In this document: in pieces, positions 14,570 through 15,220 of the stretch | Layout of the letters: every line of letters begins with the position of its first letter | Position numbering within the stretch: the first letter of the stretch is position 1 | NCBI GenBank assembly: GCA_902384675.1 | Contig: CABMCT010000075.1 | Span: 1 to 37,401 of the forward strand | Source: an uncultured archaeon | GTDB taxonomy: Archaea; EX4484-52; LFW-46 | Direction of reading: 5' to 3' | Length of the DNA stretch: 37,401 bases | The notes under the pieces: model-generated | Told to the model about the DNA's origin: nothing | Databases searched by the model: none | What the model saw: only the letters and a program-made list of their open reading frames with translations | Made by a program: the position numbers and the translations under genes

Positions 14570-15220
14570 CTTTTACGCTTTTTAAATGCTTGCGTAAAAG
14601 TTATTATTAAAAGAGCCAGAGACTCCGGTTCAAACGCGGTTTCTCTTTTTCTTTGGAAAAGAAAAAGAGACAAATCTGGGTGGTTGAAAAATCTTTCGAT
14701 TTTTCACATCTCCAACACTTTGTGTTGCAGATAGAAAAAAAGAAACGACCGATTTTCAAGTTCGCGAGAACTTGGAAAGCTTGAAAATCTGCAAAGATTT
14801 TCATGACCTCGCTTCGCGAGGGCGCAAATCTACCTAGAGCTGCTGAAACTCCGGAAAGCCCCATTTTTTGTTTTGCAACATTTTATGCATGGCAAAACAA
14901 AAAAGCCGAGAGTTCCGCGCACAATCCTCTCACTTGCGTTCGAGGCTTTTGAGGATTTTCCAGCTTGTCTGGAAATCATGCCTTGCGGCAAGCTTTTCAA
15001 CCTTCGGTTGAAAAAGCCGAGAGTGCAACGAACGGATTTTGGGATACAGGGTTCCCAAAAGCTTGAGACGAAGTATCTGGACTCCCTGCCCTCAAAATGG
15101 TTTATAAGGCGGAACGAACGGATTTTTAGCCATTCGCTAAATGCGCTGGGCGAAAAAGCTTGGAACGTTAGTTCCATGACTTCCAACCGTTCATACAATG
15201 CAATGGGTTGGAAGACAACA
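14570..15220. repeat. Hairpin-cassette array A (modular palindromic units)
   Basis: More than 10 perfect or near-perfect stem-loops packed together, including three 17-nt-loop hairpins with ATGC in the loop (14864-14904, 15123-15157, 15180-15214) and AAGCCGAGAG connectors. Confidence 0.85.

Follow-up and report, generated by a model that had tools for sequence, protein, structure and literature searches.

The hairpin arrays of the window (the whole stretch of 37,401 nucleotides analysed here) were very probably built by serial and nested insertion of a very small non-autonomous mobile element, termed TK, that would move as single-stranded DNA. TK is mobile, and a filled and an empty site in the gene dinD provide the decisive case. 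If this account is true, TK is among the smallest mobile DNA units, with boundaries fixed to ~2 nt by the interrupted gene; it would offer a test case for the origin and spread of short palindromic repeats that have no linked transposase, a matter not yet settled for REPs, PATEs or the hairpin elements of mitochondria.

The archaeal genome containing the window (G000; the window is contig C75) comprises 1.2 Mb in 76 contigs and is 89% complete; the sequence analysed (1,196,656 bases) was rebuilt from pieces. Judging by its size and archaeal gene content, it may, as a guess, belong to a small-genome DPANN lineage. It was compared with one congener (G001, 95% complete) and with 32 other genomes of the same order. 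Contig numbers given below without a genome refer to G000.

Anatomy and abundance of the repeat unit

The repeat unit underlying the arrays consists of a hairpin T followed by a hairpin K (45-67 nt in total), which are unlike each other and alternate along the arrays. T is composed of TTTT and a variable stem of 4-5 bp ending in C, a loop of either 3-5 nt or 16-17 nt and a complementary arm ending in AAAA. K, which can lie in either orientation, starts with GC and a two-base pair (CG/CG, CT/AG, CA/TG, or TT with AT), continues either with NGAG..CGAR or with a direct stem, then with a variable stem of 5-7 bp, and carries a loop that is either CAATGGTTCATAAG-like (17 nt) or GNRA-like (4 nt); GA closes the hairpin. 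On the strand read in the earlier note, the GA dinucleotides of K face each other across an internal loop.

That note had described three arrays (A, 14971-15040; C, 35278-35350; D, 36712-36765), all of which exist with the hairpins that it listed, and had ascribed to them a fixed modular order. The recurring parts were borne out, but the natural repeat unit is T plus K and not the whole array. Further copies beyond the three arrays were located in the window, one after a tRNA gene and one at a start codon (Table 1).

Table 1. Coordinates of T and K hairpins, TK units and inserts in the window.
Feature	Position	Strand	Remarks
T hairpin heading the array, 13-bp A/T-rich stem	14864-14904	+	Perfect stem by eye
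K unit, stem TTCCGC/GCGGAA, connectors GCCGAGAG and CGAACGGA	14905-15122	+	Loop split by nested inserts; arms 14905-14919 and 15109-15122; homologous copies have empty K loops
First-level TK insert in K loop	14926-15097	-	~173 nt compared with the empty K loop of C18; its T hairpin TTTTGAGG..CCTCAAAA hosts the next insert; occurs in C19 without the inner block
Second-level insert, 126 nt, three TK units, includes array A	14956-15081	+	
Unit of 126-nt insert	T 14956-14975, K 14976-14993		
Unit of 126-nt insert	T 14994-15015, K 15016-15036		
Unit of 126-nt insert	T 15037-15060, K 15061-15081		
T (15123-15157), K (15158-15179), T (15180-15214)	15123-15214	+	
T-K-T element directly after tRNA gene 3' end	15365-15481	+	K unit 67.3 bits
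Lone TK unit at start codon	32440-32495	-	60.5 bits
T hairpin with AGAG loop motif	35245-35277	-	Ends at ATG of rpoP-like zinc-ribbon ORF (46 aa)
K unit, TTAC loop (GTAA on other strand)	35278-35299	+	Start of array C
Host T hairpin TTTTGGGA..TCCCAAAA	35300-35366	+	Split by TK insert 35308-35349 (TTC-loop hairpin plus GCCTAGAGTGCAACGAAAGG)
K (35367-35411), T, K, T downstream of array C	35367-35500	+	50.7 bits
Array D: K 36714-36735 (TTGC loop), T 36736-36756 (TTC loop)	36714-36756	+	In 3' end (last codons) of NUDIX ORF 36704-37204 (-)

The arrays are not chance palindromes. Perfect short hairpins occurred at 1.18 per kb in the intergenic DNA of the genome against 0.31 per kb in its genes, and 362 intergenic ones were found where ~139 were expected under a first-order Markov model (2.6x). 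The K-type pattern AAAGC..hairpin..GATTT was found 112 times as against seven times for a reversed-spelling control, and the connector AAAGCCGAGAGNGCAACG (allowing up to two mismatches) 21 times with none in the control. Comparison of the intergenic regions all-against-all gave 1096 similar pairs. The arrays thus recur through the genome, whereas their absence from the rest of it had been named in the earlier note as the outcome that would speak against its reading. Covariance models located more than 60 K-type and ~100 T-type copies in this genome, 45-48 copies in the congener and essentially none in the other genomes. One model, R1, gave 69 matches in the genome and 45 in the congener and no match in 59 other archaea; across 394 genomes a single further match, weak, was obtained (G128), which falls inside a sugar-kinase ORF and was rejected as chance. 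An Rfam scan of the window brought tRNA alone to the gathering score, no known family fitting the hairpins, and no earlier description of TK was found in the open-access literature.

Stem sequences differ between copies, nearly every change on one arm being compensated on the other, and the loops and connectors are retained. In alignments gathered under a mismatch limit (A1 and A2), which inflates the pairing percentages but would still have let through stems with one or two G-U pairs, 97.4% of K cells were paired (22-40% in slid controls) with double changes in 47 cells against 12 in shuffles, and the T hairpins at start codons were 99.3% paired with 39 double changes against eight. G-U or other one-sided changes were very rare (4/416 cells in K, 1/297 in T). 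That the stems are near-perfect and so seldom altered on one side only suggests that, at the DNA level, one arm may serve as the template for copying or correcting the other, by which the stems would stay perfect. The suggestion in the earlier note that the cassettes are structurally templated is borne out in so far as both sides of a stem change together with few one-sided intermediates, which fits templating without proving it. Covariation is the usual sign of a functional RNA; here it is largely a property of mobile DNA, so that caution is called for when covariance models are used to discover RNAs.

Filled and empty insertion sites

The T-hairpin model gave one strong match in a genome of the same order but another family (G027), namely a complete 67-nt TK unit inside the dinD ORF (L212:1503-1569). 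The site is empty in two congeners of that genome, G033 (94% amino-acid identity over 118 aa) and G023 (89%); the alignment contains a single 67-nt gap, and the reading frame rejoins exactly once these 67 nt are omitted. The target reads CCA^TTCC, with neither duplication nor loss of target bases and an ambiguity of 2 nt. Because the flanks match the congeners at ~90%, the contig is unlikely to have been mis-binned, and because G027 has no other strong match the unit seems to have come in recently from elsewhere.

Series of sites with graded filling were found closer to the window. The loop of a host T hairpin, CTTTTGAGGA^CTCCC..CTCAAAA, is empty at four loci of the genome (C12, C18, C19 and C49) and at one in the congener, of which ~540 kb was examined so that its nested-site counts are partial. 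Elsewhere the same host carries inserts of 45 nt (C31), 55 nt (C62), 56 nt (C21), 100 nt (C8 and C36) and 126 nt (the window), each of which starts with TTTT, stops with GA and comprises whole TK units: none in C19, one in C31, C62 and C21, two in C8 and C36 and three in the window. At more than ten loci nothing interrupts a second host hairpin, GGGA^ACCC..TCCC; inserts of 42-56 nt occupy it in the window (35308-35349), C25, C49 and C71 and in the congener. Among filled and empty pairs collected automatically, ~28 of 48 cluster at 42-64 nt and another cluster lies near 100 nt.

The hairpins assigned to array A in the earlier note are present, but they belong to the longer 126-nt block, which sits in the loop of another hairpin. 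Since array A falls inside a three-unit insert in a host loop, the supposed fixed modular order is the outcome of serial and nested insertion. Array C was likewise recast: its TTC hairpin and AGCCTAGAG connector form an insert inside the T hairpin TTTTGGGA..ACCCCGAATCCCAAAA. With clean pairs of empty and filled sites, one of them in another genus, the view that the arrays are mobile cassettes and not random palindromes was upheld.

Formation in place, in which template switching and slippage perfect the palindromes and recombination duplicates the arrays, would account for the perfect stems with few one-sided changes and for the near-identical long arrays that are present at unlinked loci. It cannot yield a clean foreign 67-nt TK insertion in the dinD of another genus, which refutes it as the sole explanation, or a series of zero, one, two and three units with exact boundaries at one site, and it is regarded as highly improbable; local mutation may nevertheless explain how the stems are kept perfect.

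In this account, a unit goes in 3' of an A (often at CCA^TT) without target-site duplication, and the hairpin loops of older units as well as T/K junctions serve as further targets, so that arrays grow serially and in nested fashion. Two observations count against the account: the targets vary (CCA^TT, GGA^CTCC and GGGA^ACCC), and an automated test, with ambiguous boundaries, gave no preference for loops, 22% of the sites lying in hairpin loops where the background was 25%. A loop preference is therefore not claimed.

A second palindromic repeat family (TTTCTCTTTCTACCCGGATTTGTCT...), located at ~14620-14760 in the window, itself hosts TK insertions; it also occurs in C11, C31, C32 and C48 and in C35 of the congener.

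Copies at start codons and tRNA gene ends

In 83 ATG-initiated ORFs of the genome, the A of the start codon was found to be the final base in the 3' arm of a stem (19-39 at shifted positions), and ~40 of these 83 stems are T hairpins of the family. A Shine-Dalgarno motif (GGAG, GAGG or GGGG) lies in the loop of 34 of 41 T hairpins at start codons as against three of 143 strand readings elsewhere (both strands of each hairpin counted), where the loops read GGCGAAT, GGTGAAT or similar in its place. The lone unit at 32440-32495 illustrates the arrangement: the last base of its T hairpin is the A in the start codon (ATG) of a 552-aa ORF (30782-32440, -) and its loop contains the Shine-Dalgarno-like AGGGGA, while the flanks without the unit would read AATAATGG, leaving the start codon intact. 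Behind tRNA genes, the element lies on the tRNA strand and starts right at the discriminator base. We read the insertions at both kinds of site as lying next to functional sequence and as tolerated, the unit bringing its own AAAATG and a near-Shine-Dalgarno loop. In a unit that has landed at a start codon, the T hairpin finishes at the A of ATG, one base change turns the GGNGAAT loop into a Shine-Dalgarno motif, and the unit thereby takes the place of the ribosome-binding site; from sequence, we infer that it works as one. Copies of this kind point to a way in which a repeat could alter the translation signals of housekeeping genes.

This placement could also be expected if the arrays were genus-specific cis-regulatory RNA leaders, with T-K-T as a selected 5'-UTR structure that has spread with its genes. 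The ~40 T hairpins that end exactly on an ATG, most with a Shine-Dalgarno motif, agree with such a leader, as do the strong covariation of the stems and the retention of the element, with different stems, at two orthologous genes. A few elements lie at orthologous positions in both species (C49 with C4 of the congener and C12 with C19 of the congener), which counts against the mobile-element account in that some may have been retained for a function. However, a K unit was present upstream of only two of ten orthologous start codons on unselected contigs of the congener and the element was absent from the other eight, a presence/absence pattern that rules out a strictly conserved leader RNA. 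The element also follows tRNA genes on the opposite strand and occurs in hairpin loops and in a protein-coding gene, and there are almost no G-U pairs, although selection at the RNA level would tolerate them. A leader RNA is considered decidedly unlikely; the pattern at the ten orthologous start codons is also evidence for the mobility of TK.

Longer loops, of 30-34 nt, occur in some of the start-codon T hairpins; the ~15 additional bases frequently repeat an ATGG/GGTTAGT motif (C20:4142, C28:1698, C33:17186 and C31:58497; C19:19466 in the congener). The tRNA gene at 15262-15364 (103 nt) was matched by Rfam and missed by ARAGORN and presumably contains an intron; a second tRNA-like stretch, also split-looking, follows the T-K-T element at ~15560-15665.

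Search for a mobilising enzyme and relation to known elements

IS200/IS605-like single-strand transposition leaves no target duplication, has boundaries set by hairpins, uses short targets ending in A and can rely on a trans-acting mobiliser. By analogy, the absence of duplication, hairpin-set boundaries and A-ending targets of TK fit such a process (compare PMC3119063), and the unit may be moved as single-stranded DNA by an enzyme acting in trans, of the IS200/IS605-like (HUH/Y1) kind or another. The genome contains a single Y1 transposase in an ordinary IS605 (tnpA and tnpB) on C57, the ends of which carry no T or K hairpin and differ from TK; the congener contains three Y1 genes with other hairpins around them, none of which is flanked by TK units. 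This lack of a TK-bearing Y1 gene counts against the account favoured here. No RVT_1 was found in G000 that would point to a reverse transcriptase as the mobiliser. The IS605 on C57 (L078, 2-622 and 2422-4019) adjoins an ORF resembling IscB (RRXRR/GVDSGYENIG).

REPINs are inverted pairs of one REP, near a RAYT gene, for which movement as single-stranded DNA by a Y1 enzyme in trans has been proposed (PMC3116915). The earlier note had pointed to such a REP-type transposase, and REP-like hairpins moved by a REP-associated Y1 enzyme would agree with short extragenic hairpins present in tens to ~100 copies without target duplication, with a doublet as the moving unit and with the existence of Y1 genes in the genus. 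However, T and K have different stems, loops and connectors and are not inverted copies of one REP; the stem is the fixed part of a REP and the variable part of TK; and no RAYT gene or other Y1 gene flanked by the repeat was found in these genomes (89% and 95% complete, so that the search was not exhaustive). The linkage was rejected on the present data, and a REPIN/RAYT system appears unlikely.

The PATEs of Haloquadratum walsbyi are palindrome-associated, non-coding and IS605-derived; their 52-bp 'terminal-only' forms may still move, and small elements nest in palindromes (SMR-A into PATEs; PMC3119063). TK resembles them in being non-coding, in having palindromes near its ends and no terminal inverted repeats, in the lack of target duplication and in a copy number of tens to hundreds. 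Three of the four PATE features tested were found in TK: palindromes near both termini (TTTT-hairpin ... hairpin-GA in dinD and in the host-loop series), no target duplication (the single 67-nt gap in dinD) and a length of 45-67 nt, too short for a transposase. The fourth was not, as the palindromes of PATEs resemble a resident IS605 whereas the IS605 on C57, in a genome that is 89% complete, has other ends. Furthermore, unlike PATEs, TK consists of two hairpins only, with variable stems and kept loops and connectors, its units enter each other's loops, and many of them abut a start codon and carry a Shine-Dalgarno motif in the loop.

The mitochondrial double-hairpin elements (DHE of Allomyces and RHE of sponges) also have two adjacent hairpins per unit and an intergenic spread that differs between close relatives, and those of Allomyces have no reported flanking duplications (PMC2800124). 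TK is likewise a two-hairpin unit inserted without flanking duplication, but DHE and RHE reside in organelle genomes of eukaryotes whereas the window is archaeal (L37ae, archaeal-type regulators and archaeal relatives). In sponge RHE the stems are kept and the loops vary, which is the reverse of TK, and neither serial loop insertion nor a role as ribosome-binding site is described for these elements (PMC2800124).

We file TK as a new variant among small palindromic non-autonomous mobile elements, outside the PATE, DHE and REPIN families. It is also possible, although we propose this tentatively, that TK represents a new class: a transposase-less, self-nesting 45-67-nt pair of unlike hairpins that would be recognised by shape, loops and connectors and not by stem sequence, with stems rewritten by hairpin-templated copying during movement, and that would cross archaeal families and act as a portable ribosome-binding site at start codons.

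Three minor features of the window were recorded. The C-terminal tail of the NUDIX ORF (36704-36790) is encoded by array D, as if the original stop codon had been lost to an insertion. At the end of the contig (37308-37401), ~90 G in a row, broken by one T, are a sequencing or assembly artefact. The database relatives listed for the methionyl-tRNA synthetase (19980-21974, -) are all bacterial (42-50% identity), and the gene was probably acquired laterally.
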